DNA from: Polytrichum commune
Lineage: Eukaryota; Streptophyta; Polytrichopsida; Polytrichales; Polytrichaceae
Length of the DNA: 64,000 bases
Direction: 5' to 3'
Assembly: GCA_950295325.1 (NCBI GenBank)
Contig: OX485804.1
Coordinates: 12,276,001 to 12,340,000 of the forward strand
The notes under the pieces were generated by a model, which did no database searches, was not told the DNA's origin, and worked only from the letters and a program-made list of their open reading frames with translations. The position numbers and the translations under genes are program-made. Shown here in pieces: positions 7,951 to 36,633 of this stretch (position 1 is the first letter of the stretch; every line of letters starts with the position of its first letter).

Positions 7951-9360
7951 AGTATCCTCTCTCCAAAATCACCGAGTAATCTAATGACTAAGTTATCTTT
8001 CTTTGCAAAACATTTTCTATCTTGATTGTCTCCCTTTATTATTATTCTCCATAAGTGGAGTTCCTTTCCGATAAGACATAGGTAGCAATTAACTGAATAA
8101 CTATCAAACTATGATTAGATACCCTCTTGCCGTGTAATGGAGTCTTCCTCTCTACATGTGTAATACTTCGTTTGCTCACTTTCCATTTCCTCGTCAATAA
8201 TTGAGGAGGCATCCTCGCTTCATTCCTTTGAGTTTATCATACCTTTGAATCTTTTCAATCCTCTTATGATGTAGCCTTAGTTTCTACAACAAATTTCCTC
8301 ACCGTATTAATTGCAATCTATCTTTAGCACACAATCCAATATATCTCAATATTGGTAATATTTAGGCACATCTTTTTTTTTTCATGCAGATTTGGTCTAT
8401 TTCAATCTCTGTTATAATAACGTACAATTTATTTTTAGTGTAGATGTGATATATTTCAATCTCTGCTATAATTAATCATGAACTGTTTTTAGTGAAAAAT
8501 ATGTTATATATCAGTTTCGGTTATGAGTAGAAACAATCTTAATATAAATGATCAATGATATCATGTAATCAAGTCAAGAGATCAACATAATATGTTCTTT
8601 GTTCATAACTCTTCTCATTTATTACACAACACTCACTTGTTGATTAATTGTCCCCTTAGATATTGTAAGGTAGATAAGATTCAATATACTTGTAATAGAA
8701 ATGACTTTGATAATGAGGTCTCTTCAAATTGACTAATCCCAATCCATCCCTTTCATATTTTAAGGACTATGTAAATGGAAAAATTGTGGAAAGTTGCATG
8801 GAGTTTGATTGCTTAGGCAATAGTTGTTCTCATCAATTTCCTCACCTCTCTTTTTCTCTCTTTCCTCCTCTTATAATTGCTTTGTAAATCGAGACAATCT
8901 CTTCACATATCTAATCTCTCAATACAATTGTTGATGACTCACATAATAACCTCTCGAGTCTCACTTCTTTATTTTTGTAACAACACCTCATATCATAATT
9001 CTCATCCACGCATATATTTATACTCACCTCACGTGAACACCTAATATTATACTTCACACAATTGCCTTTCATTACCTTTCAATTTCTCTCGGTTTCTACA
9101 TTTGTTCCACATCAATTTTGCTACATAAGTTGTTTCTCTTCAACTTATGTAATTACGTCACCTCATGTGAGTTCTATAATTTTCTTAAAACTATCTCAAG
9201 TTACATTTACAACCTCCCAACTTGATTATGTCCAAGTTAACAATTTTAGTTTGCCTCTGCCTTGAATAGCTATGAAGAAGGTTGAGCTTGAAGCTCGTGT
9301 ATTCAAAATGGTAAAGATACAAAGGACCTAGCTCTCGCGTAGCCTATCGATGTGAATAAG

Positions 9361-10622
9361 GTAAGGTGTTCTAACTCTATTCCTAATTCTATATATAGTG
9401 AGAAGAGGTGCGTAACATGTGCCCCCCTCCTATATTACTTTATCTTGCTATTATTTTTAAAAGATAAAGATAGCTCTTTCATAATCCTCAAAGAAAGCAC
9501 ATATTCTCCTCATCTTCTTTTATATTCAAGATATTCAAGATTTGAAATCTACCTATCACACTATCTAGATTTTGAGGGATTTCCAAGGATAACCCAAGAA
9601 GATTTCCAAGGATGAGAAGTAACTAGTTTTCTTGGCCCTTGCTTACTTCCACCTCCGGTTGCCTCACCTATGTGGCCTAAGTGAGTATAATCACCATGGG
9701 GTTCCCTAATTCTAAGTGGCTTACTTAATCTATGAGATAATCTCACTAATGTTTACTTGCCTCTTACAAAGTTTACAGTCTAATTGGCTTACTAATGATG
9801 CCCTTTTAACCTTACGTGGTTACTAATTTAATTGTCTTTACAAATTTGGTAATCGGCCCGTAGGCCCCTTAAACCTAAACACATAATCCTCCTTAAGTAG
9901 CAACTATGGTGATTTTTTTTTAACTAAACGTTGTTAATCGACACTTGTGGTAGTAGTCCAATAACCATATTTTTGGCCAAATACCCTTGTGGTATTCGCG
10001 TTGTTATCTGGCCCGTTGTATGGCTAAGGTGGTATGATACCTCAGGGCGATCACACCCCTTTACGTTTTGTAACCACGTGCGATAATGGGGTATTTAATG
10101 AGGGGATATTTATGAACCTCTCAATATTTTTTTTCCTACCCTATTTGTAGATATAAAGCTACTTTGACGTATTTTTTAGGACCCTATATTTATTTGTAGT
10201 TATTTAGAGAGGCTAAATTTTGGCACCATACTCTTTTTATAAATCGTACAAGTACCAAATAGTGGATGGAATACTATAGCATTGCAAAATCAACTATGTG
10301 AGCAACAAACATTCCATACCATCCATCTTATCATTCAATTGGTTTCAATTAGTTACATCAATCCTAAACCATTCAAAATACCATTCAAAACACCACCAAT
10401 AGCATTTGGGTACTAGTTATAGGGTTACCAATAAACATGGAGATAATAAAATATACAAGCTAATATAGACAAGTTGTAAACACGGATAGAACAAAACAAG
10501 AGGTATAATTAGTTGTGACAAGACATAGAATTTTGCAAAACTACCTACTCCTAAAAAAAGTTACATTCAAATACAAGAAAGCTAAATACAAAAGCCATAA
10601 TTATCTTATTGATCCTCACTGG
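9361..10622. other. No supported gene
   Basis: AT-rich sequence between IR1 and a MITE. No coding frame or RNA gene was recognised. The IR1 homology ends sharply at about 9360, just after a run ending GATGTGAATAAG. Confidence 0.4.
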
Positions 10623-11021: not shown

Positions 11022-11359
11022 TTCGTGTTGATACTACTACACACTTTTAGGGGCATCCAATATTTATAACCCTATTTTTTCTACTGATTACTAAAATGAA
11101 GGAATCATTCATCACCCTATTTACATATAATCATGTAGGGGACATATTTCCTATGCTATGGTAGATCTAACGAAATTATAATTTTTACTCTCAACGAATT
11201 AAATTGATTTTTCTTTTCTATTTTTATCTCACATGGTTCCTATAATTCCAATAGTCACCTCCCCAAGTCTGATACCCGCCCTGGCTAATTGAAGTCCGAG
11301 CTTCTTTTTCCATTTCCGATAGTTCTCTTCTTTGTGTTTGAGATTTGTGGTGAACATTG
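11022..11359. other. No supported gene
   Basis: AT-rich intergenic sequence between the MITE and IR2. A short minus-strand frame (11224-11436) has no recognisable domain. Confidence 0.35.
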
Positions 11360-13192
11360 GTACATGGACGTGTACCTTTATTACAACGGGGCCATGTATT
11401 TACATGTAGAGAGCATGTCCTAGAAAAATATGCCACGCCTCTTTAGAGGATTTTAAATTTTAAGTTTAATCTTTTAATTCCTTCCATCTTTATGATGCCC
11501 AATATGTCCAATGTTCCTTATAAACGGTCATCCCACACTAGTAGTTGCTTAGCATACACTTGTCTTATGTAGAAACCTTTATTTGAGTGGTATATGGCAA
11601 AGGCCTGCAATTAAGAACGAACACCAAAATTATATATTACAATGAGATCGGACTAGGTCCATGCTCAAAGTAAAGACGCCATTCTACGTTCACCATACAA
11701 TTGGGAGGGCCTATGCAATTGCTTGAAGAAAGAAAGAGAAAAATCACTTTGACATCTTACAACTTTATATCCCAACTCCGATTTTGACACTTGAAAGAAC
11801 AATTTTCATGATTCACAATTGCAAACCGGATGAGACGATTCACGATCCCATCCAATGTCCTGAAGTGTATGTGTAGTTGGCTTAAACCAACTACACATGA
11901 TGGTCCTCAAACAAATGCTTGAGATTAGTTGTTACATTGAATAAAAGCATCTTCAAGTGGGATTCGGCCCCCAATGGATGTAGGCACGGAACCTATAAGT
12001 GTCCCATTGGCTCACCCTAGGACCATGTATAGGAGAACAAGCTCAATTCACATTTCTTTTCCATTTCTTTTTCAAATGGGATAAATCAAAATCAAAATAC
12101 ATCTCAAATATTTTTTATGTTATATATTTGGGTGGGTCCAAGACCATGGTTTTCTCCCCTCATATTTGTTTTTGAGATTTATGACCAATATCTTACATGA
12201 AATAAAAGAGTCGTCTTACATCAAAAGTAGGATAAAATAAAACTTTTCATCCACGTCAATTTCATGGGAAAAACAATTATTGTGGCTCACATTGATTTTG
12301 AGTTCAAAAGTTGGTGTGGGTTAGAAATTAACACGGCCCACACTAATAGGGCTATTTAGCATACTATTTTAGATAACAACCCCCTCTACAAATCTTAGGG
12401 GCAAGTGTGCATTGATAAAACTTGGTGTACAAAGTTTGTGGTCTACAACATAATGTCAACAAGATTGTTCTCTATATAAAAATACAAAATAAATAGATAA
12501 TAATAAAATAATGATCTATGTTGTTGTTTTCACCTTCAATCTTTTCTAGACATAACCTTTGATCTTGTAGACATTAGGAGTAGAAGACCCGTGGAACATA
12601 AACCATGATGAGCTCAAGTCATGCTAAAAATTGCATTGTGCACCCAATTTGTTTCAATAGCATTGAGTGAATAAATATGTGTATAGTCGTAAGGAGCTTT
12701 GTACTTCAACTTATTCTAGATTACTACCATTCAAACTTCCAAAATGATACACAATGTGCCTATAAGAGTGAAAAATGTACCACTAATTTGCGGGCCTCTT
12801 GTCTTTTGCACATTTGTTCAAACGCACTCAAATCCCACAAGAACATCATAAGGCACGTGGGTGTTATACTCTACCTTCTATTGACCATGTGTTATGTCTT
12901 CAAATTTGTGTTGCATTAGCAAACATGTGTTAAACCCTTAACAAAACTAGTCTGGAAATTGGACCTCTCCTTATTTAATTACGGTTATCGAAAGTGCATG
13001 TGTGTTGATTCCTTAACTGGATGCATAGTTCCTCCAAATTGTGCTCATTATTGAGTGTGGAGTAGTTAATCAAATTAGAGGACGTAGTTCAAATTTATTT
13101 AATATATATGTCTCTATGGTATTTGTTCTTTGTTCATCACCTAACCATACACCAATCAAATATATGTGTATGATTAAGAAACTAACTGAATA

Positions 13193-15370: not shown

Positions 15371-15380
15371 CTTCTGAAAG
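15371..15380. other. Target-site duplication, left (CTTCTGAAAG)
   Basis: Identical, same-orientation copy of 27975-27984. Ten base pairs lies within the 8-11 bp usual for Mutator-like insertions. The DNA beyond each copy rejoins to one NLR-derived segment. Confidence 0.9.
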
Positions 15381-15396
15381 GAGGGAAGCTAAGACA

Positions 15397-15466
15397 TGAG
15401 CGATGAGCGGTGAGCAATGAGCAGTGAGCGGTAACACGTGAGCAGTGAGCAATAACACGTGATCGA
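15397..15466. repeat. Terminal heptad array (TGAGCRR)n, left end
   Basis: Ten consecutive 7-bp units: seven fit TGAGCRR, two read TAACACG and the last is TGATCGA. The register is strict, with no indels. Clustered short repeats near transposon ends are commonly transposase- or accessory-protein binding sites; that role is inferred here. Confidence 0.85.
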
Positions 15467-15711
15467 TGGTGCCAAATATAGTAACTGGGCACGGTTTTAG
15501 GGTACATATTCTAATATTGGCATTTTTTTCTTTGCAATTTAATAATTATAAAGTACTCACATTTTGATTGAACAAGAGTGAAGGGAGCACATTATCATAG
15601 ATATTTAAAAAAACCATCAGTCCTTTGCTGATTTTTATTATAAAAATCCACACTAATACATGTCACTTACCAAAATTCTCAAACATGCGGTTGAATACAA
15701 CACTTGGAATA

Positions 15712-18700
15712 TTACTCACATTCTACAACACCTGCAAGTTCAAGGAGTTGCATAACCTCATTGTAGGAGTATGTTGGAGCGTGAATGAACTTGTCACTAC
15801 TGTAATCCACCTTACACAAAAATCTAAACACATAGTAAAGATGTTTGCAATACACCCATTTCCCTTTCTTTCCCAAAGATTGAGATGACATTTTCGTGAA
15901 GTCAGGGCATGTACAATGTGGCATGTCAGCAATTGTGACACAATATTTGATGTTATCCTTGGAGAGGATGTTGAGTAGGACTCCAAATCCTGGATATGGA
16001 ATGGCAGTTACTCCAACCACATAGTAACCGTCCATGAGTCCAGCGCTCTCCCATTTGTTTTTGTGATCTGCCGTCGGTGCTCCTAGATTGCGGCGCACCG
16101 TCTTTCCAAACCTGGAAGTTGGATGGGCATCTGGTTTTTGTGGTACACGAAAATCCGTCCGAGGAATCGGGAGCGTCGCAATTGTGGAAAGCCTACGGCG
16201 AGGAGAGAGAGCCTCCCTTTGTTGTAATTGGAATCCAGCATCTTCGAGCGCCAATACCTCCTGCCTTGAGAGATTGGTACCTATCTTTACAGGCCATGTG
16301 CTGGATACTATAGGCCAGTCTAACACGTATTTCTTCTTGCTACCACTTACACAACGTTTGATGTCGTCAGGGCAAAACCAAAACTCGTACTCCACATTGT
16401 TGGTGGAGCGGTATTCTTTCTTCAATCCCTTGTATGTAGGAGCAGGGGTGCCATGTTTGTAAGTTCCAACTTTGGCATTGCACAAAGACCATGTATTGGC
16501 TTGCATCGCCCAACATCTTTTGGCAGAGTTGGATGGCAATCTTGCAATATGCCAATGAGAAGAAGGGCAATCAGTCTCTAACACCGATGTGGTATGTGCC
16601 ACACCATACTCTGCAGAATTCAAAGATTCCTCTATACATGCCCTTTTAACCCTAGTGTTAGGACGAGGAATCGAGTAGTTTACTTTGTCGGGTTGATGTG
16701 AGTCGCAATCTGCACCTGGCGGCAGATCAAGTTTTCGTTTGGTAGATCCAAACAGCTCAGACCCCTCCAAAGCACAATCCCTTGTATTGAGATCTTCAGC
16801 CCCCGGATAGGATTTCATGGCATCTGCTAGTAGCTTTGGATCTCCACACCGGGCAGCAGCCTTCAACTTCAAGGACGCAGAATCAGGGCCTTTACCAGTA
16901 AAACCTCCTCTCAACCACGATCTATAATTTGCAATCTGCATGAATGCACGGATCAAATCGTCCACTGTTGCTTCATAAAGACAAATCATCTTGTTTCCAG
17001 ACTGTTGGAGCCATTTGTTGTGCATTGTCTCTGCAAGGTTACACGTCGGCATTTCTGCACGTTCATCTATATTCATATCCTGCAAACATTACACAAATTA
17101 TAGTAGATTGTATATATCATGGATATTCAAAATTGAATAATATTGGAAAAACATAGTAATGATGCACTTACAATAATCATATGACCACCCCATTGCCTAT
17201 AACGGAAGTGCCAAAACCCCAACCACTCGGAGAGCCCATGAATGTCTTCTTCTGTGGCAGCTCCAGATGACAACCACCATGAACGAATAACATGATATTT
17301 GGTTTCGGCTTCGTCCATTGTTTTCGCGTCTTTGTAATCTTTGCATAGTTGTTTGTGCTGAAACTGCAAAGATGCCTTGATATATTTTTGCGTCACCTTG
17401 TCCAAGTTTTGTGACCAATGGAAAAGACAAGTGCGCTCACGACCCACCATTGGCAGACTTGGGTCACCTCCACCATATATCTTCCTGACCGCATTCCAAT
17501 TTGCTTGAGCACTGTCTGCCATAAAACCTTTGAAATTCACGGTTAACACTCCATTCTCCGCCATAACAGTATTCAAGTTTTCCCAGAAAAGAGTTTGAGC
17601 TGCACCATCTTCAGATTGCATGTCACAACACGCAATGGTCAACACCTTACAATACTTGATATCGTATACATGACACGCAAGGGTGGTCCAGTCCTTCAGA
17701 CGTTTAACGTGGTCAAACATTATCCATGAATTCTCCATATCTCCTCCCTCTTGCATACGCGTAACAAGATCTACACCACTCCCCGGAAGATCTACTGACA
17801 TTTTGAAGACAAATACTTTGTCTTTGGACTGTCCGGGGAACCTACTAGCATGAACTTACTTAAAGCTCGAATGGTCTTTGAGCGCCATGATACTATCCAT
17901 CGTACCCATTCCACTACGAACAAATCGCTTTGAGCCGGATACGAAATTCCGACAATTTGGAGAGGCAAGAGTACTAAATTTATCCATGACAACCTCCAAA
18001 GACGAACCTGTCAAGTGATGTCTTTCACTGTTTGATGGAGATTTTAGGAGGTAGTCTGCCAAAAATTGTTTGCTCGCTGCCATTACTATAGCGGAGTATT
18101 TGGCAGTGGGTGTTTTTGTGACCTCATTGGCAACACATTGGTATGCAATGTCCAAAGATTCACGGCATGTACCATTGGACACAGGGTGGTCATGCACGCC
18201 TAGATGAATACAAGCCCTGGCCATTTCAGAAGATATGGAGTGCACATATATTATGCGAGCATGGCATAAAGCTATGCACATAGGTGTGGAATGACAAACC
18301 TTACATTCCAATTTGGACCTCTCAGGGGCAATAATACCCATAGAGTATGGGGTAGGAGTTGATCCGGCCCATTCGGTGTTGTTGCACTCGCCTGCATTGC
18401 GATGCATATAATCACAAAAATCATTAGAGCATTGGAGATGACCTGCACAAGTAGAACGTCTGAAGGTTAATCCAAAATCATTTTGGATATTTGTGGTTTT
18501 GGTGGTGCACCAAGGGTGTCCGTCGCACATCTTATCCATGCCATCCATCGAACGACCATAGGCGCTTGGAACTCCAAATGGCACAGGGGGCAATACAAAC
18601 AAAATGTCACCGTCAAAAGAGGAGGGCAGATACTTAACATCTCGCACCTCTATGCTGTCAAAATCAATGGACGCAAGATCTGACTTGGATCTTTTCCTAG

Positions 18701-19307
18701 ACTTTGTTTGTTTCAATGCGTCGACAATATTCATACCCACTGATGAAGAAAAATTGTGTAGCGGGGGACGTTGTGATACTGAACCATGGTGTGCCACCTT
18801 CACATACAGAGGACTGTAAGGAGATTTGGGAAGATCCATAAGGGGTTTTGAAGGGGTGGAATCTTTACTTCTAAATGGAAATGGTGATGTATCAGAAAGG
18901 TCAACAACATCACAAATGTCATCTTCAAAATCCGACAACACTATTACACTATCATCAGTAGGTTCCAATTTAACAGTGACGATACTTGGAACTTGAACAG
19001 TTGATGTACCAGATTCATTTGTCAAAATGACAATAGAAGCTTGCATCTGAGAATCAGAGAGTCCCATAACTCTATATGAACCAGGCCCTAAACTCCACAT
19101 AGAACCACCCTCACTTCTATTCTTTTGCATCAAGATTGTTCTAGACACCTCTCCACCTACAGAGTATATCTCTTGCTCGACGTACATGGTTCCTACTTGG
19201 AGGTTGAATCTCAAACCAAGCAAATCTTCTAAAACAACTACACAACCATCACTTTCAAGAGGCAAAATGAAGGGTATAAAGGATCCATGAGCACGGATGG
19301 TAGCCAT
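15712..19307 (-). CDS. MULE transposase with SWIM zinc finger (one in-frame stop)
   Basis: Two exons, 19307-17172 and 17079-15712, joined by a 92-bp GT-AG intron (17080-17171) that keeps frame; total 1167 codons. The ATG at 19307 opens the long frame. N-terminal about 270 residues are variable and acidic. A Cys/His-rich region follows (about 270-390), likely DNA-binding, with HLGVHDHP. The DDE-type core has candidate acidic residues D532 (IMFDHVK), D598 (GFMADSAQ) and E729 (NLAETMHNKW), with CLFHWSQNLDK between the last two. A SWIM finger CxCx19CxH (C1101, C1103, C1123, H1125) lies near the C terminus, as in plant MULE transposases. A TAA at 17856-17858 interrupts the frame before the core; the same frame continues directly (VHASRFPGQSKDKVFVFK), so this is one nonsense change and not an intron. 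Expected role: cutting and inserting element DNA in the nucleus. The copy is probably inactive unless the stop is read through or is an assembly error. Confidence 0.88.
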
Positions 19308-19735
19308 GAAGAATGTGTGGATGCAATGTACATCATACTATGGAAAACATGACCTATTTGTATTGTGTCTTGGCAATCTTAATCCGTGGACTTGAAAAAT
19401 ATACTATATGAATGTCTATTGAAAGACATGGTGCACATGGGCTGGTAGGTGTAAAGAAGGTAATGCCAGTTGTTGATTAGATTGGGTAGACAATGACCAA
19501 TGTAAGGAAGATATTTTAATAGCGTATCTTTAGCTTTCAAATAAAATTCAATATCTTAATGTTTGGGTTCTAAAGATGGTGGTGGTGGGCCTTTAATAAT
19601 TCCTAAATCCCAAAGAAGAAGAAGACATAATGAGTGATGATCTGTTTCAAACTTCTTACAGCTTCAAAGTGAGGTAGAGCTTTTAGGTTATGCAAAAAGC
19701 GAATGTAGAGAATTGATAGATTTTTAAGGTTGCAA
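19308..19735. promoter_or_regulatory. Shared divergent promoter region of the two MULE genes
   Basis: A 428-bp noncoding gap separates the transposase start (19307, minus strand) from the partner-gene start (19736, plus strand). Divergent spacing this short suggests a shared control region. TATA-like AAATATACTATATGA occurs near 19398. No specific binding sites were identified. Confidence 0.4.
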
Positions 19736-22700
19736 ATGCAAGAACGGGATTATGCGACACCAACAAAGCGGAAGAGAAAGAGGGGTGGTTTTAAGTACTC
19801 CACCAAAAAAACATTGGCGAGATCAAGAATGGAGAAAAGATTGAGTAGGGTCGATGAGGGAGAGGCATTTTTGACATCGAGAACTATATTGTTTAAGCCC
19901 GGAGACGAAGATACTTACACCGATGGGCTCGGCTCAACACCTTACATTGGAGGCGAACCCAATACAGAAAGAATTACGGACACCCAAGAATCTTCTGGAG
20001 CCGAGGATGAAGGGGAGACTCAATATACAAGAGAAGTAAGACTCAATATTCATTTCTCACTTTGTAAATTCAATTGCAAGTTTTATACACATGTTGAAAG
20101 TACAATTGATATGAAGGTGGATACATATATTTTTTGTGGGCAAATATATGTTAAAATTTTGAAATTTGAGATTTTGGGTAATACCTAAGTGAAGTCGTTC
20201 TTGAAATGGATGTCATTGATGTGAAGGTTATGTAGTTGACCATATACATTGTTACATTTACGGTTTAGAACTCAAATAAGTCATAGTTGACGTGTTTATT
20301 CTTGAGGGTGAAGGTAAACATCGAGGACGAGGAAGAAGAAGACAACTTGAATGAAGATGAAGAAGGAGAGGACGGTATAAAAGATGAACTAAGAGGAGGC
20401 TTGATAGATAAAGCAAGAGGAAGCATGGAAATCGATGGAGGAGGTGACTTCACCGCCGCCCAAAAATCTCAGGCAAGCATTTTGAAAGTGAACTTGAATG
20501 CTTGAAATGTTTCTTAAAGATTGAGGACACGGATTTCATCACTTCCTCCTTACCCTTGGTTTCATAAGGTGCTGAGAATGAGACATTAACCCACAAAATA
20601 AAGAAATAATAAAGCAAGAAAACCCTAAAATGAATCTCGGTTCCGAGACTAGGTTTTTTGAAATTTCAGGGTTTTTTTTCTTGCCTCTTCAATTCTTGCT
20701 TTTGTGTTTCTTTTCGCACTTCTTTGTGTTCATTGCTTATATCTTGCTTTGATATACATGCTTAGAAGTTATTATATAGTTTGCTTGATGGGTTTGTAGT
20801 GTATTCAAAAATTCAAGAAGCTTCATTGTTGAAATTGAAGCTTGAAATGGTTCTATAAGGTTAAGAACACGGATTTGATCACCTCCATCCCACCCTAGGT
20901 TTCATAAGGTTCTGAAAATTAGGCATTTGTGACCACAAAAATAAGAATTGAAGAGGCAAGAAGAAAACCCTAAAATCTCAAAAAAATGAGTGTCGGTTCC
21001 AAGACTAGGTTTTTTGAAATTTCTGGGTTTTCTTCTTGCTCTTCAATTTTTGCTTTTGTCTTTCTTTTTGCACTTGCTTGTATTCATCGCTTGTGTCTTG
21101 CCATGATAAGTATGCTTACAAGTTATTGATAAGTATGCTTGATGGGTTAGTATGTGGTTTCAAGAATTTCAATGAAGAAGCTTCAAGGTTGATATTGAAG
21201 CTTGAAATGAATCTATAAGTTTGAGGTCACAGATTTCATGACCTCCCGCTCACCCTTGGTTTGGTAAGGTACCGAAAATTGGGACCTTGATGTGTACATA
21301 AAGAAGAAATGAAGAAGTTAGAAAAAACTTCAAAATTCCGAAAAAATGAGTCTCGGTTCCAAGACTAGGTTTTTTGAAATTTTTGGGTTTTCTTCTTGCC
21401 CTTCAATTATTGCTTTTGTCTTTTTTTTTCCACTTGCTTGTATTCATCGCTTGTGTCTTCCCTTGATAGGTATGCTTACAAGTTATTGATAAGTATGCTT
21501 ATGAGTTAGTATGTGGTTTTAAGAATTTCAATGAAGAAACTTCAAGGTTGATATTCAAGCTTGAAATGAATATATAAGTTTGAGGTCACGGATTTCATGA
21601 CCTCCCGCTCACCCTTGGTTTGGTAAGGTGCTTAACATGGGGACATTGATGTGTACATAAAGAAAAAAATGAAAAAGTTAGAAAAAACTTCAAAAATCCG
21701 AAAAAATGAGTCTCGGTTCCAAGACTAGGTCTTTTGAAATTTCTGGGTTTTCTTCTTGCTCTTCAATTTTTGCTTTTCTCTTGCTTTTTGCACTTGTTTG
21801 GGTTCATTGCTTGTGTCTTGCCTTGATAGGTATGCTTCCAAGTTATTAATAAGTATGCTTGATGGGTTAGTATGTGGTTTCAAGAATTTCAATGAAGAAG
21901 CTTCGAGGTTGATATTCAAGCTTGAAATGAATCTATAAGTTTGAGGTCACGTATTTCATGACCTCCCGCTCACCCTTGGTTTGGTAAGGTGTTGAAAATG
22001 GGGACATTGATGTGTACATAAAGAAAAAATGAAGAAGTTAGAAAAAACTTCAAAATTCCGAAAAAATGAGTCTCGGTTCCAAGACTAGGGTTTTAAAATT
22101 TCTGGGTTTTCTTCTTGGTCTTCAATTCTTGCTTTTGTCTTTCTTTTTGCACGTGCTTGTATTCATCGCTTGTGTCTTGCCTTGATAAGTATGCTTACAA
22201 GTTATTGATAAGTATGCTTGATGGGTTAGTATGTGGTTTTAAGAATTTCAATGAAGAAGCTTCGAGGTTGATATTTAAGCTTGAAATGAATCTATAAGTT
22301 TGAGGTCACGGATTTCATGACCTCCCGCTCACCCTTGGTTTGGTAAGGTGCTGAAAATGGGGACATTGATGTGTACATAAAGAAAAAATGAAGAAGTTAG
22401 AAAAAACTTCAAAATTCCGAAAAAATGAGTCTCGGTTCCAAGACTAGGTTTTTTGAAATTTCTGGGTTTTCTTCTTGCTCTTCAATTTTTGCTTTTGTCT
22501 TTCTTTTTGCACTTGCTTGTATTCATCGCTTGTGTCTTGCCATGATAAGTATGCTTACAAGTTATTGATAAGTATGCTTGATGGATTTGTATGTGGTTTT
22601 AAGAATTTCAATGAAGAAGCTTCAAGGTTGATATTCAAGCTTGAAATGAATATATAAGTTTGAGGTCACGGATTTCATGACCTTCCGCTCACCTTTGGTT

Positions 22701-25700
22701 TGGTAAGGTGCTGAAAATGGGGACATTGATGTGTACAAAAAGAAGAAATAAAGAAGTTAGAAAAAACTTCAAAATTCCGAAAAAATGAGTCTCGGTTCCA
22801 AGACTTGTTTTTTTGAAATTTCTGGGTTTTCTTCTTGTTCTTTAATTATTGTTTTTGTCTTTATTTTTACACTTGTTTGGGTTCATTGCTTGTGTCTTGC
22901 TTTAATGTATATACTTGGAGGTTGTTAGATTGTTTGTTTGTTGTTTTTGCGGTGTATCCTAGAATTTCAATGAAGAATTTTCAAGGTTGAAATTGTTGCT
23001 TTAAATGGTTCTTAGAGGTTGAGGGCTTAGTTTTTTTTTCTTTGAATGGTTAATTTTTATGTAATTTGATTGAATGTTATTTGTGGTTTCATAGTTATGT
23101 GTTAATTTCATTTAATTTGTTATTCGAATTTCATGATGGTGGAGATGACGATGGCGGTCCCCCACTGCCCAATGATTTGTTAAATGTGGAAGAGACTATG
23201 TCTCATATGCGAGATTTACAAAATACAAACTTCAATTTTTTGATTGGAGGACTTCGTATGAAGCCGTTCTCAAAGTCAAGAGTTTCAATCTCTCTTTGTC
23301 GGTTAATACCGTTGCCTATTGTGAGGCCAAGTTTGGAAATCGATGTCCAGCTTTTGGGGAATGAATTTGTGAATGGTTATAGGGAGGATGATAGGGTACT
23401 GTATGTATCTCCATATGACAAAGATGGAAATACTATGGATATTCAGGACGAAGACACTTGGGGAGAACATTGGCAATCTTCCAATAAATCATTTGAGGAA
23501 ATCCTTAAGAATGATAAGGATTATGAAAGGTTTTGTGGTAAAATGTTCTTTGTTTGGGAGGGTAACCATCGGGTGACAGCTTGGCGCTGCTATATCGATA
23601 AGGTCCATGGAGAAGATAAAGAGTGGCATTATTCCGTTGATTGTATAGTACTTGAATCAACCGGTTCGGTGGCTCTTTTTCTAAATGCTATGCATGATGT
23701 GAACAAGATTGTTTCATGTTCCGATGTTTTTTTATATTTTTTTCGTTTATAATTATCAAATTATCAAATTCATTGATATTTTTTTGTCATCTCTCTTAGG
23801 TCTACGGAATCAGATCATGTCAAGACAAATTTGGTTCACAAATTCCATCGTGTCCAAAGTTTTGGAATCAGGAAATTGGAGGAATTTAAAGACCTTACCC
23901 CTGATCAATATTCCAAGTGTTTGAAGAAAGGTGCAAAGGAAACTTGGTATACCCTCACTTTGGAAGTCTTACTCAATTTCTTTACAATGTGGGTATTCTA
24001 ATTCATGCTAAGCTCTGTTATTGAATATATTTTTGCTAAAGGATCTTAAACTAATTCTTAGTTTTTGGTTGTGTAGCGTGAAATAGCATCTATGACCGAA
24101 GAGGCATCTCATAAATACAATGAGAAAACTCCACTTCAATCAAGGACAACAAAAGGTATTTGGGATGTCATGCAAAATGCAACAAAGAAAGCAGTATCAT
24201 CAATTCGTGGAAAAGAATTCGAAAAACTTCTCGCTGTCGCAAATCCAGCCAATGGCTTCGATTTCTTGGAAGAGGTAAGTCATTATGTTTTTTTATGTAG
24301 CATTCATTTCGGTATCCTATATGAGAGATTTTCATTATTTTCACCTTCCATTTCGCAGATCAATAAGCATTTTGGAGATCGCTCTGAGCCTACCATAACC
24401 CTAGAGAAATTGCAAATGATTGCAACTGCTCCAGTGAATTCGGTGTTCAAAATCAAATGGTTACGGTGGTGGAATTCTAGCGACATGTCCCGTGAATCTC
24501 TACGCTTTCCATTGGGAGATATCAAAGAAAAAGAACTTGAGAAATGGTTGATCAAAGCGTCATTTTGGGCCAAGGTTATTCTTTATTCTTAAATATCTAA
24601 GTGTTTTCATCTCAATTTTTGAATGTTTTATGATTTATTCAATGGTCGTGATGCATATGTGTCATTTTGCAGTTGGAAGATGGTTTTGTGAAACAATTTG
24701 AGGATATGGAAAAGGAAATGAATGTGAAGATTATTTGGAATGCACATATACTTATACCTTCTGAGTACATTGAAAAGTGGCGTATTTATGCTTTAGACAA
24801 AAGCATTCCGACCTTTTTTTGGTGGCATGAGTGCATTTACAAAATCTACTCTACTCGGTAAAATTTTTGGAGGAGGCATTGCTATCAAACGAGTGGTATT
24901 CAGGTAATTTATCTTTTCTTTCTCTCATAGCTTCAATTCGTTCATTGCATACTTGAAGTTTGCCTTGACGTAATCGATTCACTAACTTCAATCAAATGGT
25001 TATTTTGTCTCAAAGGTACATAAAAAACGAGCTATTGGCTTCAAACGCCATCTCCTTTGGCTCCATTCCGAGTTGTTTCTCTTCATGGGCTGACAAATCT
25101 AGTGACCTTTGCATTTTTACGGCAACCCAGAAAAGAGTTTGGGATTATGCCACTTTGCAGTCTTGTCCATGGTTTATTGAGTGTCCTCTTACGTTTTGTC
25201 CAAGTGAGGAGGAGGAGCTCAGGAAACAGTCATGTCCAATAGACTTGCCTCCTGATGATATTGACATGATGAACAACGAGGATGTGTGTGTGGTGAAAGT
25301 AATCAAACCGGAGGGAAAAGCTAAACGTAAGCGTGGCTCAAAGGTAGATGAGGTTAATCCAACACCTTCATCTCAAACCGGTGTTATGGCACACAATCCT
25401 AGTCCTTCAAAACCTACACCTAGCACTCAAGATAATGATGGACCTAAGTTTTATCCCATTTCAAGATCACTACGATTTCAACATGTGTCAAAAACCATTG
25501 TCAGTGGTGCTTCACCTTCTGGGGCAATTTGTTCAGTGATGTTGGAGAAGATTTCAATTCAAACATTGATGGAGAATGGTGGTCATGAGCATCCGTTAAT
25601 GTTGAAAACATTTGAATTTGTAACTAAGGTCAGTATACTCAACATTGAACTTATTTTTATTTTATGATATATCACTAGTAGAAAACATGGTAAAAAAGAA

Positions 25701-27391
25701 CCGCATTCGTTTTTCCATTGCTGTTCTTTTGACCACCCTGATCTGCACTCACTAAACGACTGCAGATTTTTCTTTTTTGTTTTACGACTACAATTTTAAA
25801 ATTTTGGGGGCATGTAATACACCGTTGGAAAGGTATTTTCAAGACCTTTCCAGCGATATATTAAAATCCCCCAAATTCCTAAAAATTTAGTTGGTAAACC
25901 AAAAAAGAAAAATCTGCAGTCGTTTAGTGACTGCAGATCAGGGTGGTCAAAAGAACCACAATGGACAAACGACTGCGGTTCTTTTTTACCATGTTTTCTA
26001 CTAGTGTATGGTGTTGATGTTGCAACATGTTTTGGACTTGAGTATAATATTGTTTTTTGGTTTTTTTTTTGTAGGTGGGTTCCGGACGCAATAGGAGGGT
26101 TTCTTCAGAGGATTGTAGTTTTGGAGGTTTTGACCTTATTATTGCAGATTTGCCAGAAGGTTTGCCTGTACCTAACGTTTCATCTCCTCCACATATAATC
26201 CCAGCTTGGAACGACCACAAGAGAAAGAACATTGAGGCTCTATTTGAATTTGCATGTGCATATCTCACCGATGATGGCCCCTTGCTTTTGTTTGTTCCTG
26301 AGAAGAAAGATGTCAGAGATGATGTAAGGACATTCGCAGCCTCCTATGATTTTGTATTGCGAAAAGATTGGTGGGGCTTCAACGAGTTGCCTTTGTGTTA
26401 TCCACTTGACACATCATTGACGGTATACATTAAACTCTATTATTTATTACTTTGAATTCTACTTTTTCATTGTATTGCAATGTTCTCATCAATTTTGTAA
26501 TTGATTCCCCCGCTGAAGGTTTTCTCGTGGTTTATAGACTCGTCGTTTCCGCATCATGTTGTTTCTTCGTTCTACTCCCAAGTCGGAGTTTGTTTTTCAA
26601 AAAAAGAACGCAAATACTGAGGTGGATGTGGAGGCCTTGGATGTGTTCTTCAATCTCACATCGGCAAGCACTCAACTCATGAACGGAAAAGTGCCATGGA
26701 GAGGTGGTAGGGAGAAAGACTCGGAATCGATGCAAATCTTAATAGAGGCTTTAACAACTCCCGCATCGGTTGTCCTCGATGCTTATGCATCTACAGGTTG
26801 GTTTATCTCTTACTCAAATGACCTATTATATCATCTCCCAATGTGTTTTAATGAAATCATTGTAGTGTTGTCAGTGGCTTGTGCAAATTAACTGACATTT
26901 CAACATTTCATTGGCAGGTGCATCTATTCATGCTTGCAGAAATAGTGGCCGCCATCTAGTGGCATATGAGGAAGATTCTGCATTGTTTGATGCCATTCTA
27001 TCCCCATTAAGTGATCCACCACCAACTGCTACTGTAGGTGGATTTATGCCATATAATGCCTCCATCGATTCCGATGAAGAGCCTGTTAAGAAGGTTGCGA
27101 GAAAAAGTCGATTGAGTACGTAAGTTTTCAATTTCTCCATATTGTTTGTTAATTTGGCCCTCCAATGTCTTATATGTGTGCACTAGAAGTCTAACACTTA
27201 TGATGTCAATTTGCAGAAAAAAGAAAAACATGACTTCATCTCCGAATATGGGTTTGCCAATATATGCAGAAAATGTTGCACAGATCATGGCAAGATCAGT
27301 GACGCCAACTCCTCGCCGTATATCTACACGAATTGCTCATAACCCGTATGTAGATGATGAGGCGATTCAATGCGATGATCTAAGTGATTAA
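19736..27391 (+). CDS. ParB-like / degenerate N4/N6 DNA methyltransferase-like protein
   Basis: Inferred exons: 19736-20035, 20314-20443, 23145-~23720, 23800-23992, 24077-24274, 24359-24574, 24673-24857, 25016-25628, 26075-26422, 26538-26796, 26918-27119, 27217-27391 (about 1130 aa). From 23800 onward every GT-AG junction keeps frame; the 20443/23145 join is plausible, and the junction after about 23720 has no donor of matching phase. N-terminus: basic (KRKRKRGG), then acidic. At 23.25-23.7 kb a ParB-like domain: IPLPIVRPSLEIDV, then EGNHRVTAW (GNHR box) and a following beta-strand/helix. The 25.0-25.6 kb exon has a nuclear-localisation-like KAKRKRGSK. The C-terminal 26.07-27.1 kb part follows beta-class methyltransferase order: motif IV position FDLIIADLPEG (in place of DPPY), motif X, then motif I VVLDAYASTG and GRHLVAYEED. 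The catalytic DPPY is missing, so binding rather than catalysis is likely. ParB-methylase fusions are common in bacteria and phages. Role in the element is unknown. Confidence 0.72.
20490..23030. repeat. Tandem array, about 7 units of 360 bp, in an intron
   Basis: The landmark AGACTAGGTTTTTTGAAATT recurs, with small changes, near 20647, 21001, 21361, 21721, 22081, 22441 and 22801. Spacing is about 354 bp once and then 360 bp. Central units are nearly identical and outer ones more diverged, as expected from unequal exchange. Each unit also has TGAGTCTCGGTTCCAAGAC and GGTTTGGTAAGGTGC. Sixty-codon frames in each unit merely repeat with it and are not genes. The array fills the 2.7-kb intron between exons 2 and 3 of the ParB/methylase-like gene. 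Confidence 0.92.
25673..26006. mobile_element. CACTA-type foldback MITE in an intron
   Basis: The ends begin CACTAGTAGAAAACATGG and are near-perfect inverted repeats. The 3-bp flank TAT is duplicated (25670-25672 and 26007-26009), matching the CACTA superfamily. The interior is also largely palindromic (CTGCAGTCGTTTAGTGACTG and its complement), so the whole 334 bp could fold. It lies in the intron between the 25016-25628 and 26075-26422 exons, whose splice sites remain intact. Confidence 0.88.
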
Positions 27392-27909
27392 GCTAAACTA
27401 GTTTAGGGACATTTAGGTAGTTGTCAATACCATCCACTATGTGTTTGATTGGATTGGATATGATTGGATTGGATATTATTTGGTGTGACAAAGTTTGGAT
27501 TCATCATTTGAAATTACCACAATTAGTGGACATTGAATTGTGTGAGCAATTTCCTCTTATTCCTAAACCCTATATCCTAAAACTTAATTACCTCTATCAA
27601 TCCATTTCTCAAACTTACATGAATTTTAGAAATACAGTTTAGAGCAATACTTGGAAGGTGCTTGCATTGTTATTACAATTGGATGTTGCATCCAACAACA
27701 TTAAAAATATTTTTCAAACCCTCATGCCAAGCTTGCAGTTGTTGAGTTTAAAAGTAGAGTTAGGTATTCATGAGGATAATTACATTTTTTGACTATCCAT
27801 TAATTTTATTATAGAAAAAAATATTATTATTTATGCCAAAATACCACGGATATAGGGTACTAGTGCGTGTATTTCCAAAAATCTTTCCTCACCTACTGTT
27901 CACAAGTTA

Positions 27910-27958
27910 CTGCTCATCGCTCACCGCTCATTGCTCACCGCTCATTGCTCACCGCTCA
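27910..27958. repeat. Terminal heptad array, right end
   Basis: On the minus strand this is seven exact consecutive TGAGCRR units (GG, AA, GG, AA, GG, GA, AG endings), followed inward by decayed units. It is in inverted orientation to the left array at 15397-15466. Confidence 0.85.
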
Positions 27959-27974
27959 CATGATAGCACTCCCC

Positions 27975-27984
27975 CTTCTGAAAG
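27975..27984. other. Target-site duplication, right (CTTCTGAAAG)
   Basis: Exact direct copy of 15371-15380. Sequence to its right continues the NLR-derived segment interrupted by the element. Confidence 0.9.
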
Positions 27985-31814: not shown

Positions 31815-34800
31815 TCACAGTATCAAATGCCCGATAACAGTATCAAATGCTTGCATGCGGCCTAAGTTTATTTTCAGCCCAGGACACACTGCTTCTAGCT
31901 TCACAATCTCATCCGTACTCAAAGATATTTTCCCACAATCCCATATGTTGCAGTATCTCAATCGTCTACACTGACTCAAATCGGGCACTTCTTGCAATTC
32001 GTGGCAATCCAATATGTGGAGCCCTTCCAACGCAGTCATGGGCATAGTGCTGGTCAACCTCTCCAACCTCTTACAATCCCAAATATTCAACTCTTTCAAT
32101 TCAGGGAACAAACTCAGATCTGGTAGCTCTCTGCATCCCACATTGGAAAGGCTCAAAGTGTGGAGCGCCATTCCAGTTCCAATTCGAGGTTGGTCGACCC
32201 AAAGAGTGTCCGAGGACTTTGATATGCTCACCCCTGCCCAGACCACAATATTTGGGCACCAGAACACATCCAATTTTTCTAGTCTTGTCAACTTGTGCAT
32301 ATCAGGTAATGTCTCCAAGCTAGGGCAGAATGATATTGATAAACTTCGTAAGGAAATCAAGTTGCCCAAACATGACACATCCTTAAAGCAGCAGGCCCAT
32401 ATGACTACCCTTTGTAATCTTGCTAGATTCAAGAGGTTGGGCATCATTTCAATGCCCTCCCCCGACCCCCATATCTCTAGATGTTCCAAACTCACCGCAT
32501 CGCTAAAAGCTGGTGGTCCCCTCCAATTCCACACTTGGAGGGTGACTAATTTGTTCAACTTGTGAGGATTAAAGCCACCTTGTAGTGCTGCATGCTCAAT
32601 TGTTAATGCTTGCAAAGCTATCAGTTCACATAAGCCTGGAACCCCTTTACATGAAGAGGAGGAAATCAAATCCAATGTTTGTAAGTTTGTGAGCTTGTGC
32701 ATGTCCGGCAACGCAACAAGGCTATGGCAAGATGAGGCTTTGAACTCCTCCAAGGCCACTAAGTTGCCTAACCCCGGCACTGCTTCGATTGACTCACAGT
32801 TGTCAATGTTCAACTTCCGTAAACGTGTGAGTTGTTGTAGGTTGGGCAACTCTTGAAGATTCGAACACAAAACAAAAGAAAGTTCCTCCAAGGCAAGTAA
32901 GTCACCCACACCAGGGCAAGACCGTAATGAAACATAGTTAAAAATGTTCAAGTATCGCAAGTTGTAATGCTTTGCAGTAACGCCTGATATGGCCTTTTCA
33001 TTAAAAAAACTTTCAAAGCCATTTTTACGTTTAACGCCCGACCGATTCAAAAATGCCAATTGATTCTTTTTGGGTAATTCTGGAATATACGGTGTGTCAA
33101 GGCTCTCAACCGTAAAATCGATTCCGGAATAACGGAGGCAACACAAATTTTGTGGTATTGAAATCAAATTGACGGTGCCATCACATATCAATATTCGTAA
33201 TTCCTTCATGTCGGAAAGGGCAAGGTTCATGTGTGGTTTTGAATGCGTCGTGATAACCAAAGTTTGAAGAGAATGAGGCAATGCCTGCACACAACCATCC
33301 ATGTCACATGTATTTTAGTTTGACGTTAAATAGTTATTCTATTTAGCACCAAGCTTAGATAAACACAAATCACTATCAACATGTATAATTTAACTCTAAT
33401 ATACTATTACCATCAATTTCCTTGCATTGGAAGTTCAACTTCATTTCTAAGATCCAGATAGATCCCCCTTGCACAACACAAATGGATCCACGTCTAGGCC
33501 AAGGTTTTAGTCTTGATAAGGGCCTTTATTGTTTTTTGGCTTTCACCAAAAGGGACTACCTTTGACAAGATGCAATAACACTTGTCCAATAGCCATGCTG
33601 TATAAAGCCGTTTGTGGTTCACATATGAGCTTGTGGCTATGATTAAAGATCGCAACATGTGGACTCTTAATTGAAACCTAAATGACGTACAGGGGTCACT
33701 ATGATATTAAACCCCTTATATACGACAAGTTTATAAAGAAAAATAAATGTATACGTACTATTGGCATGCTAGAAAATGGACTCGTGTATTCATACTAAGC
33801 TTTTGAATTTAATGTGATAAATGCCTCCACTACATATACAATATAACAAATCATTAACCTAATAAGACTTTATTACATATAAAATCCACTTTCGATTTCC
33901 AATGAGAAAGTCACTGAACATTTTTTCATGCATAGCATGTAACTCAACACAATAATTTACCCACAATCCACAGAGCAAAATTCAAGGGAGCCCATGAGCT
34001 CTCCAAGAGCCTTCAATTTGTAAACCCTAGAACCCAAATGCCAATCTTAACAAGAATGAACATGGTAATTATTGAGGACAATTATCATATGACAACAATG
34101 GATGAGAATGTGAATTGGTGAAACTAACCAATCTATTGTTAATTTTGTTCTTTAAACCATAGGGCCCCCTCTTGTACATCCACCTTTACTTCACATTTAT
34201 TGATATTAGCTTTTTCAAATGTACACACCAAAGATAAATAATAACTCTCCCATGATATGTATACCATGTACGATAATGCCTCAAATAATAACTCTTCTTA
34301 CACTCACGTTAGTTTGTACATGGTACAAAGAGTCCACCCCCTAGGTCAAAGATGAAGCATCCATCAATTATGTTGGATTCACACCAACCTTTGCTTGGCG
34401 TCCTCTTTGGTTTTTCTAGCTTACAAGAGGTGATGAAGATTTTGAACTGTTTGTCAAGTTAAATAGATTTCAATGGCTTACAACCAAATATGTTAGATAG
34501 TTTGACAATCAAGCTCATATATTTAGTTGTTCAAATATTGATTTGTCAATAATCCATGGCTCACATATTTAGTTGTTCAAATATTGAGTTGTCAATAATT
34601 TATGGCTCACATGTAAATCAAAAGCCTGATGCATTGGAAATGTGTACCTTTCTCTCCTCCAATAATGATATGGACTTAGGCATCCATAAGCGGCGTGTAT
34701 TATCCCCCGCTTCAACTCTTTCAATTTCGCGTCCCATGTCCCTTAAGTGGTCATGCATTGTAAAGCGGCCTCTTTCATCCACTGAAATGAGTGCCTTCTT

Positions 34801-36633
34801 TTTAAGATTCCGGAGGCTCAAGCTAGGCTCCCAGTTTTGTGATCTCCAAACGCATATACCCATATCTTCAAACTCTCCAAGTAAAGCACATGCAATATCC
34901 AAAAACATTTTTTTCTCTTTTTCTGTGAGAGAATCATAGCTGATTCGAAGACAATCCAAGATATTCTTATCATCCAAAATCCCACCGGAATTCAACTTGC
35001 TCTTCACATCCTTCCACACATCCAAATCCACCTCACCCCTCAAGAGAGCTCCGTAAATTTTCAACACCAATGGAACTCCACAACATAGCCGACTGATCTC
35101 TATCGCCAATGCTTCATATTTTGGTCTCATTTCACAATCCCTTCCAAAGGCAAAAGATGTAAACACTCGTTTCGAATCTTCCATATTCAACATTTTGACC
35201 TCATGAACATAAACCTCTTGCTCGATGGGTTCAAATATGTTCGAAGCTTCAAGCACACGCTTGTCGCGTGATGTCACAATGCATACGCTACCTTCTTTTA
35301 GCATCTTGCGTGTCATAATGGAATTCAACATCTCAACATTAGAAACATCATCCAAGACCACAAGAATTTTTTTCTTGCTTAACCTTTCGTCAAGAATAGG
35401 TTTCAACTCCGATTTGTTGTCATTATCGATCGCACTTGAACAAAGATCCTTCAACAACCGCTTTTGAATCTCCATCACTCCATGACTTGGCATTAGCTTG
35501 TCTGTTACATCCTCAACATAACAACTTGCTTCGAACCTTTTGCACAATTGGTTATATAAGTCTTTTGCCAAAGTCGACTTTCCAATTCCACCCATTCCCC
35601 ACAAACCCAATGCAGAAACTTTCTTCTCGAAGACTTGGCATTGAATTAGCTTGTCGGCAACTTCTTTAACACCAGCCACATGTTCACCCACATCCAAAGG
35701 CAATGACTTGTTCGCCAATTCCAATACTCTTTGGACAACCTTCGCCACCAAATCCACTACGAAGCTTTCACAAACAAGAAAATCTCATAAAATTTAGTTT
35801 GGGATAACAATAATGTAGAGTTAACATCTAAAACATTTAATAACACAATACACACACATCCAATAAAATTGTCACTCTAGTGTCAAGAATGATGTAGTGT
35901 TACCATCTAGACCATTTGACAACACGATATATTATGGAGATGAAGTACCTTGTCGAATTATCGGAGTGCTCCCAACCCATAAGTCTAGAAGCTACTTCCA
36001 AATCTGCTTTCCATTGTTGAATAAGATTTAAATCGAATTTCTTTTCGAACTTCTCGAATCCATTTTTAAAGTGACCTCTTTCTAGATTACGCAAATCTCG
36101 AGGTGTCACATTGTAGAATACTGGAAGAATCTCCTTGCGTGGATAAGCGTCCAACATGACATGTAGTTCCTTCAAACACCACTCGGACTCTGCATATCTC
36201 TCAGAAAAGACCACCACAGCTATCGGAGCATTCTTGATTCCATCCTCGATAGAATTCCAACACTCGTCACCAATACCAATAGATTTGCGATCTAGGTATG
36301 GATGCAACCCATGTCTTTTGAGGTCCTCATACAAATACCCCACCAACCCTGTCTTCGTGTCTGGGCCTCTATGGCTTAAAAAAACATCATACTTTTCAAA
36401 TTTATCTGCACATAAACAAGGTGATTGGTTGGTACAAATCTCCACAATGTGTAAGTATCTAAACTATAATACTTGTTATCAAAACCTCCTCCATCGACAT
36501 ATGATAAACTAATATACCACACAAGGAAATTTCTAAACAAGTCAAAACGCCTCGGTTCAAACTGGATCTTACTCTCCCTGGTGGCTTCCATCGTCATAGG
36601 TGAATGGTGGGAGCAACTAGCCTCACTCGCCAT
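31815..36633 (-). CDS. TIR-NB-ARC-LRR immune receptor (TNL)
   Basis: Four exons, all with GT-AG introns in matching phase: 36633-36573, 36405-35949, 35764-34648, 33284-31815; about 1034 aa with no internal stop. ATG at 36633 gives MASEASCSHH. The short first exon is less certain; a later ATG at 36445 would also give a TIR. TIR (about 22-165): YDVFLSHRGPD and SERYAESEWCLKEL, whose E100 sits at the NADase catalytic glutamate position. NB-ARC: P-loop GMGGIGKST (about 229-237), kinase-2 KKILVVLDDV, CIVTSRDKRV, GLPL-type CCGVPLVLKIYG, and MHD in FTMHDHLRDMG (about 509). LRR (about 546-1034): repeated xLxxLxxLxLxxCxxLxxLPD units. Intracellular sensor: effector recognition triggers oligomerisation and TIR NAD-cleaving signalling. 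The third intron (1363 bp) carries repeat sequence. Fragments of relatives lie at 2.0-2.7, 14.7-15.4, 28.0-29.0 and 53.8 kb, so this was an NLR cluster or NLR sequence has moved. Confidence 0.93.
33679..34335. repeat. Repeat within TNL intron 3, copy of 2.0-2.7 kb
   Basis: Lies inside the 33285-34647 intron and aligns directly with 2008-2700 at moderate identity. It does not disturb the splice sites. Confidence 0.6.

Follow-up and report, generated by a model that had tools for sequence, protein, structure and literature searches.

The stretch analyzed here, called the window, comprises 64,000 nucleotides of Polytrichum commune (contig OX485804.1, positions 12,276,001 to 12,340,000). It contains a degenerate copy of a DNA transposon of the Mutator-like element (MULE) type that is abundant in the genome and has two divergently arranged multi-exon genes, a transposase-like gene (15.7–19.3 kb, minus strand) and a second gene, gene 2 (19.7–27.4 kb, plus strand). 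Gene 2 encodes a predicted ParB/sulfiredoxin-fold domain and a C-terminal part similar to beta-class DNA methylases. The initial annotation of the window regarded this fusion gene as an accessory of the element, and the genome survey bears this out. Gene 2 is an integral, co-mobilized accessory and not chance cargo, because both genes, or relics of both, are present in all 16 elements whose two gene regions were both examined, and because the two genes are paired divergently across the genome.

The genome surveyed is a 408-Mb assembly with seven chromosome-size contigs and a plastid contig that bears rbcL, trnR-CCG and a short accD of 315 amino acids. Together with a resistance-like gene in the window (see below), these features point to a bryophyte, perhaps a moss with n = 7. 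The left 600 bp of the element, used as a query, has at least 44 matches in it (best 40 of 842 candidates scored). The 16-element set consists of the window copy, ten copies taken from this list of end matches, and five divergent loci. Eight of the ten copies are near full length and carry both genes within the same ends; their main aligned blocks are 92–98% identical to the window in DNA. The other two, a nest at C3:16.48 and a copy at C5:21.9 Mb, are older, and protein comparison revealed relics of the transposase and of the ParB exon (35–37%) in them. Three of the divergent loci were chosen from ParB-exon matches (49–56% identity) and two from transposase matches, for neither of which a ParB match was listed at the time of choice. 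All five, including these two, hold the same divergent pair. The identity of the ParB exon across the 16 elements ranges from 92% down to 35%. Gene 2 is present in parts only at the two relic loci, and its methylase part was not found within the stretch read at C7:39.4. The divergent two-gene architecture is thereby conserved over deep divergence.

The same pairing is seen genome-wide. The lists of transposase and ParB-exon matches hold the best 150 of 1217–1964 candidates each (1346 for the ParB exon of the window), so the pairing counts are lower bounds. For 101 of the 150 listed transposase matches, the nearest neighbor within 20 kb is a divergent ParB-exon match; four have a neighbor in another orientation and 45 have none listed. 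The random expectation is a mean of 0.98 and a maximum of 5 (300 trials). In the reverse direction, a divergent transposase match is the nearest neighbor within 20 kb for 68 of the 150 listed ParB-exon matches, with four in another orientation and 78 with none listed (random mean 1.1, maximum 5; 500 trials). When two lists are combined, the genome holds at least about 290 distinct ParB-exon matches. The initial annotation had considered that other copies might lack gene 2, or that gene 2 might be a single-copy host gene outside the terminal inverted repeats. Neither is the case: no element of the set is without gene 2 or its relic, and the ParB exon has at least 150 matches, many of them beside a transposase as counted above. 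At least 11 transposase matches of the C1:28.0 type have an open frame of 766 amino acids at 100% identity, apparently a sign of very recent transposition in this lineage.

The 12.6-kb element of the window (15381–27974) is bounded precisely by 10-bp copies of CTTCTGAAAG at both sides. Its terminal inverted repeats are imperfect (59 nt, 80% complementarity) and consist mainly of heptads, (T)GAGCNN, in runs of five (left) and seven (right) in exact 7-bp register. The matching ends, the perfect duplication and the heptad arrays were thus described correctly at the outset, as were the two divergent genes as the only ones inside, with which the gene models agree. Element ends and target duplications were compared by eye. 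Among the 15 elements with both ends examined, 12 have a perfect duplication of 9–10 bp, one has a duplication matching at 8 of 9 positions, and two, at C1:28.0 and C5:21.9 Mb, have none; the right end of the C5:21.9 relic is uncertain. Heptad ends are observed in the window family, C5:38.65, C1:64.5, C6:11.8 (left end only), C1:28.0 and C2:56.5, and the ends of C7:39.4 were not found within the stretch read. The C1:28.0 and C2:56.5 elements, whose transposase centers are 61–63% identical, keep the GAGCGG core in their heptads, and C2:56.5 has a perfect 10-bp duplication. At C3:16.47–16.48 Mb (L025, L026), one member is nested in the transposase gene of another copy with its own 10-bp duplication, AGTAACCGTC. 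The ParB relic of this nest belongs to the inner element; the stretch read stops short of the ParB exon of the outer one.

MULEs generate target-site duplications of 9–11 bp, and the 12 perfect duplications and the presence of terminal inverted repeats are in accordance with this class. The central part of the transposase is 63–91% identical in four divergent lineages. Motifs which we take to be the D...D and NLAE(T) of the catalytic site are conserved across the transposases compared, and the CxC...CxH motif, presumably a SWIM-like finger, is present in the C1:28.0 transposase too. The MULE call of the initial annotation stands on duplication length and terminal inverted repeats and was not supported by domain searches: no MULE model matched in the Pfam scan of the transposase, and the match to SWIM (PF04434) is weak (E 0.54, 10.3 bits, cut-off 19.6). 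A PDB sequence search with the transposase profile returned nothing credible. The element is referred to as MULE-type, an assignment that rests on duplication length, terminal inverted repeats, and the DDE/SWIM motifs as we read them.

The window copy is probably not autonomous, because its transposase has an in-frame TAA at 17856–17858, where a sense codon (Y or C) stands in eight of eight sister copies, and because gene 2 exon 7 and its counterpart in seven of the eight sisters can be aligned in two overlapping frames, as from a one-base length difference. The sister copies bear stops of their own. An intron of gene 2 contains a foldback (25673–26006), presumably CACTA-like, which has TAT at both sides and is missing in the sisters C7:1.02 and C6:27.5. 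The empty site in these two is not a clean single TAT.

The ParB exon of gene 2 matches no Pfam family, PF02195 included, in any of the seven members searched, and a PDB sequence search with its profile found nothing credible. Its AlphaFold2 model, built from 22 family sequences, has a mean predicted local confidence (pLDDT) of 80.3 and a predicted TM-score (pTM) of 0.79; an earlier model from seven sequences was poor (pLDDT 45). Among the first 41 fold matches in PDB, 38 are chains of sulfiredoxin, ParB, Noc, PadC, KorB or SbnI, and three are Atu1540. The exon is thus predicted to adopt the ParB/sulfiredoxin fold, with weak scores and a consistent superfamily. Searches of viral and of prokaryotic contigs for relatives of this exon, with two short patterns each, confirmed none, which is weak evidence of absence. 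Exon 1 is 95–98% identical in the eight sisters and weakly similar in C6:11.8 Mb (E 6e-7), and it was not detected in C5:38.65, C1:28.0 or C1:64.5.

The C-terminal part matches PF01555 in four of four members (E up to 10; best E 3.1e-5), the window member scoring 24.4 bits, just under the cut-off of 26.7. It also matches DpnA (E 1.5e-5), PHROG 3008 (DNA methyltransferase; four of four members, best 1e-7) and PHROG 67 (phage DNA methyltransferase family; three of four, best 7.4e-9). Motif I for S-adenosylmethionine (AdoMet) is located near the C-terminal end, which corresponds to the permuted beta-class order, and the methylase matches cover it. Motif IV reads ADLPEG, VDLPEG, ADIPEN and LQFPDG in the four lineages, none of which is the canonical (D/N/S)PP(Y/F/W). 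Since this motif is degenerate in the four aligned lineages, we call the region beta-class methylase-like and not a methylase. The loss of DPPY suggests binding of AdoMet or of modified DNA, instead of methylation, as a possible role of the domain. Thus, the ParB and methylase calls of the initial annotation are supported by predicted fold and by profile matches. Of the models that it named for checking, PF02195 had no match and PF01555 no hit above threshold.

Both genes are under purifying selection. The ratio of nonsynonymous to synonymous divergence (dN/dS) was reported for the 22 of 231 ParB-exon pairs below the saturation cut-off, the other 209 being too diverged. It is 0.06–0.23 in 16 pairs with synonymous divergence (dS) of 0.2–1.3, and 0.18–0.72 in six closer pairs, as expected of recent, partly dead copies. 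For the transposase, the ratio could be computed for 10 of 16 pairs and is 0.04–0.14.

The two halves of the element diverge discordantly. C1:64.5 and C6:11.8 are 90–95% identical in DNA from the left end through the transposase to ~200 bp upstream of its start, 72–75% over the next 600 bp, and then do not match in the gene 2 half. Their transposase centers are 96% identical at the protein level and their ParB exons 42%, and dS in the transposase C-terminus is 0.139. Between the window copy and C5:38.65, dS is 0.38–0.54 for the transposase and reaches 2.4, close to saturation, for the ParB exon. The window copy is 89% identical to C1:64.5 in the transposase and 42% in ParB; to C1:28.0, 63% and 51%. 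Such discordance is attributed to recombination replacing one half of the element, and these sequence comparisons show what appears to be recombination of the accessory half between element lineages as a cassette. Gene conversion homogenizing the transposase half would leave the same picture. A higher rate of evolution in gene 2 alone fails to explain the synonymous excess. Apart from this, a 1.4-kb stretch is 97.7% identical within the otherwise different gene 2 halves of C5:38.65 and C6:11.8; it is a younger repeat in both halves.

Between both genes, near the ParB exon, all six lineages covered in full contain tandem arrays, which differ from lineage to lineage. Their units are 360 bp in the window, 64 and 32 bp in C1:64.5, 105 bp in C6:11.8, 96–309 bp in C1:28.0, 75 bp (60 copies) in C7:39.4, and several short ones in C5:38.65. 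Arrays were also observed in two of three lineages read for 1 kb (L066 and L067). The location of the array inside a gene 2 intron is demonstrated only where exon 1 was found, in the window family and C6:11.8.

Array units of several lineages contain perfect palindromes. The idea arose after viewing the units, and only three lineages (L066, L067, and L068; 1 kb each) were tested afterwards. The scan covered perfect palindromes with an arm of at least 9 and a gap of at most 4, with 40 first-order resamples per region as a control. C1:28.0 has 33 such palindromes, C1:64.5 14 (generic ones included), C6:11.8 11 and C5:38.65 three, against resample means of 0.05–0.2 for these four regions (0.03–0.2 over all regions scanned). 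Two of the three lineages tested later also have them: L066 has a palindrome array and L068 one perfect 22-bp palindrome. Altogether, in six of nine lineages, perfect palindromes of 18–40 bp with the core CGNNNNCG are located near the gene, 5' of the ParB exon, as parS-like sites would be; in four of them they lie in tandem arrays. The context of the core is CGGATCCG in C5:38.65, C1:28.0 and L068, CGGTACCG in L066, and CGTTAACG in C1:64.5 and C6:11.8. Three of the six CGTTAACG sites of C1:64.5 fall in the 64-bp array. A site cluster includes up to 30 exact copies of the core. In the ParB tree, both CGTTAACG rows are long branches, and six of the 15 inner branches are left open. The 360-bp units of the window carry TCTCGGTTCC(G/A)AGA, a degenerate palindromic core (one unit reads TCTCGGTTCCGAGA, five read TCTCGGTTCCAAGA), and no perfect palindrome of arm 9. 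Two window-family sisters that were scanned have zero and one palindrome, the one being unrelated.

The palindromes were also counted genome-wide, with the same pattern read backwards as a control, and their places were compared manually with the transposase and ParB match lists. YCTCGGATCCGAGR occurs 3242 times (control 2), and 44 of its first 50 sites are beside a listed transposase or ParB match; of the remainder, one is 4.9 kb from a ParB match of another type and five have no listed neighbor. CTGTGCGTTAACGCACAG occurs 502 times (control 0), with 45 of the first 50 sites 0.4–5.3 kb away on the 5' side of a listed ParB-exon match. GGGTTTCGGTACCGAAACCC occurs 35 times (control 0), 19 of them beside a listed ParB or transposase match. 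A further palindromic repeat, (A)GTTTGGGTCG..CGACCCAAAC(T), makes up an array in C1:64.5 and recurs three times in the window beyond the bounds of the element. For this reason, the GTTTGGGTCG palindrome was treated as generic in C1:64.5, where it contributes to the count of 14.

Two other features of the window were recognized. At 31815–36463 on the minus strand, open reading frames resemble, by eye, a plant resistance-like gene with a Toll/interleukin-1 receptor (TIR) domain, a nucleotide-binding site (NBS) and leucine-rich repeats (LRR). At 43562–47044, also on the minus strand, three long open reading frames (201, 499 and 201 amino acids) resemble genes of another mobile element.

Table 1. 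Coordinates of the features in the window and of the shared 1.4-kb stretch.
Feature	Position	Strand	Remark
Target-site duplication, left copy	15371..15380		CTTCTGAAAG
Left terminal inverted repeat	15381..15462	+	heptads TGAGCGA/TGAGCGG/TGAGCAA, run of 5 in register
Transposase 3' exon	15712..17088	-	NLAET (candidate catalytic E), CxC...CxH SWIM-like finger
Transposase central part	17127..17855	-	candidate D...D (FDHVKR, FMADSAQ)
Transposase N-terminal part	17856..19307	-	TAA at 17856-17858 in window copy only
Gene 2 exon 1	19736..20034	+	basic N-terminus (KRKRKR)
Gene 2 exon 2	20308..20471	+	acidic; approximate boundaries
Tandem array in gene 2 intron	20627..22900		360 bp x 6.3
Gene 2 ParB/sulfiredoxin-fold exon	23133..23710	+	GNHRxxAW
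Gene 2 exons 4-8	23800..25627	+	linker region
Foldback in gene 2 intron	25673..26006		presumably CACTA-like; 141-nt arms, 87% complementary
Gene 2 methylase-like exon	26076..26420	+	degenerate motif IV (ADLPEG)
Gene 2 methylase-like exon	26538..26796	+	WRG...K and motif I (VLDAYASTG)
Gene 2, remainder of AdoMet-binding motif	26918..27118	+	ASIHACRNSGRHLVAYEED
Gene 2 last exon	27217..27391	+	to stop
Right terminal inverted repeat	27912..27974	-	heptad run of 7
Target-site duplication, right copy	27975..27984		CTTCTGAAAG
LRR part of TIR-NBS-LRR-like gene	31815-33314	-	by eye
NB-ARC-like part of TIR-NBS-LRR-like gene	34618-35784	-	by eye
TIR part of TIR-NBS-LRR-like gene	35900-36463	-	by eye
1.4-kb stretch shared by C5:38.65 and C6:11.8	L029/L030 (C5:38.65) 8219-9625; L064/L065 (C6:11.8) 11037-12426		reverse-oriented joined coordinates

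Bacterial ParB, whose partner is ParA, spreads as a CTPase, and parS sites are of one type, 16 bp long. By analogy, we give about even odds to gene 2 being an integral ParB-fold/methylase-like accessory that binds the palindromes of its own family, marks or senses element DNA, and acts in anti-silencing and/or transposase assembly. Its protein would recognize the palindromes as ParB does parS, load there, and spread over the element, and the AdoMet-binding domain would mark the element DNA or sense its methylation. The element might thereby be kept open against host silencing by 5-methylcytosine (5mC), in the manner of VANC in VANDAL MULEs, or the assembly of the transposase might be helped, or both. 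The palindromes beside the ParB exon, degenerate in the window family, are better candidate binding sites than the element ends. The terminal heptads are more likely transposase sites, because they are constant while gene 2 changes. A wider proposal is that land-plant transposons contain exchangeable ParB–parS-type modules, each a ParB-fold/methylase-like protein and the lineage-specific palindromes that match it next to its gene. Swapped as cassettes, they would provide each element with a private address by which it would recognize, coat, and de-silence (or mark) its own copies only; this is tentative and somewhat short of an even chance.

Several observations weigh against binding of palindromes by a ParB/methylase-like accessory. 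The likeness to ParB is by fold only, with a best E of 0.022, no match at E 0.001, and query TM-scores of 0.31–0.44 for sulfiredoxin/ParB chains (probability up to 0.99), and the degenerate catalytic motif speaks against active methylation. The element has no ParA gene, only two genes being seen in it. The window family and C7:39.4 have no perfect palindrome (arm of at least 9) in the stretch read, L067 has an array with an imperfect palindrome only (shuffle fraction 0.137), L068 has one palindrome and lacks an array within its 1 kb, and the three palindromes of C5:38.65 fall outside the arrays called by Tandem Repeats Finder (TRF). Five of the first 50 CTGTGCGTTAACGCACAG sites (C1:461705–462619) and 16 of the 35 GGGTTTCGGTACCGAAACCC sites have no listed neighbor. 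Finally, the palindromes share gene 2's half of the element, and therefore linkage to gene 2 is expected even without function.

In a different view, the palindromic repeats are hairpin-forming or satellite repeats, which grow by slippage or give rise to small interfering RNA, and gene 2 merely adjoins them. Tandem arrays expand readily, the GTTTGGGTCG unit is found outside the element, and the 60-copy array of C7:39.4 is without palindrome, as is the window family at arm 9. We consider this view unlikely, as perfect palindromes with the CGNNNNCG core occur in unrelated units of differing period, and the sites are far above the reversed controls, the listed ones being mostly 5' of the ParB exon. 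It is similarly doubtful that gene 2 is a transposition co-factor instead of an anti-silencing factor, its ParB fold nicking or binding DNA, as reported for a bacterial fusion of ParB and methylase, and aiding excision or the synapsis of ends at the heptads. The GAGCGG-core heptads persist at the ends of families with transposase centers only 61–63% identical, and therefore something conserved probably binds them; however, they are constant while gene 2 is swapped for very different versions, so that the better conserved transposase is the likelier binder, and it is the palindromes, not the heptads, that vary between versions of gene 2.

The C-terminal domain might also be a true methylase labeling element DNA with N6-methyladenine (6mA) or N4-methylcytosine (4mC) as self against host chromatin. 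The beta-class motif order, PF01555 in all four members, and the PHROG DNA methyltransferase matches are in line with this, and the paper on Ectocarpus, in the part available, proposes an accessory that binds and modifies its own transposon DNA. The aromatic residue of DPPY, however, is missing in four of four lineages and the acidic residue in one, which makes active methylation improbable. Recent capture of a host or bacterial gene fragment, as in Pack-MULEs, has a precedent in that plant MULEs often carry gene fragments. The same gene in the same exon order and orientation is found across lineages with transposase centers 61–63% identical, and it is under purifying selection; with this and the divergent pairing, captured cargo was rejected and has only a very slight probability left.

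If gene 2 acts as a palindrome-binding accessory, it represents a class of nuclear proteins with exchangeable specificity for long palindromes, with many natural versions in one genome. It would open a way to investigate the evasion of silencing by elements and might supply DNA-binding domains for epigenome editing. Because the palindromes predict candidate binding sites for each version of gene 2, the target code is testable. The finding joins bacterial ParB-type DNA recognition, anti-silencing accessories of MULEs (VANC), and algal ParB-methylase transposon genes.

The ParB-methylase kind of accessory is not new, because it has been published for algal transposons, the Sola1 transposons of Ectocarpus. 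Compared by description, as far as the published account is available, they carry the same kind of accessory as gene 2 and differ in superfamily and host, a brown alga, in contrast to the MULE-type element of a land plant with 9–10-bp target duplications and heptad ends; the available part of that account does not mention palindromes or cassette exchange. The combination of a MULE with a ParB-methylase gene, palindrome arrays, and cassette exchange was not found in the literature searched (mainly open-access), in agreement with the initial annotation, which recognized no described eukaryotic MULE with this partner.

Among bacterial systems, ParB–parS and the ParB-methylase fusion Bce_0392 show, in the portion of the source available, the same ParB/sulfiredoxin fold, palindromes beside the gene, and fusion to a methylase (PMC5512222). 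Gene 2, in contrast, is an intron-bearing nuclear transposon gene without a ParA gene, and its sites differ between lineages. The TET/JBP dioxygenases of fungal DNA transposons are likewise DNA-modification accessories passed between lineages and probably counteract methylation silencing; the enzyme and the hosts are different, and no MULE is among the superfamilies named in the available text (PMC12730594). MuDR of maize (mudrA/mudrB) is a two-gene MULE as well, but mudrB is of unknown function, and no link to ParB or methylase is stated in the part of the source available (PMC6446971).

The closest working model, by analogy, is VANC of the VANDAL MULEs. According to the available parts of the sources, VANDAL elements of Arabidopsis also combine a MULE with an accessory gene that diverges with its targets (PMC5735166, PMC10398659), and VANC acts on tandem repeats that bear short family-specific motifs, lie upstream of the transposase gene VANA and within VANC and VANB introns, and change with the protein (PMC5735166). 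By description, both systems thus have family-specific tandem repeats in non-coding parts, here between both genes. In VANDAL, terminal inverted repeats are described as missing or short and degenerate (PMC6446971). In contrast to VANC, gene 2 joins a ParB-fold domain to a methylase-like one, and long perfect palindromes occur within the repeats in several of its lineages.

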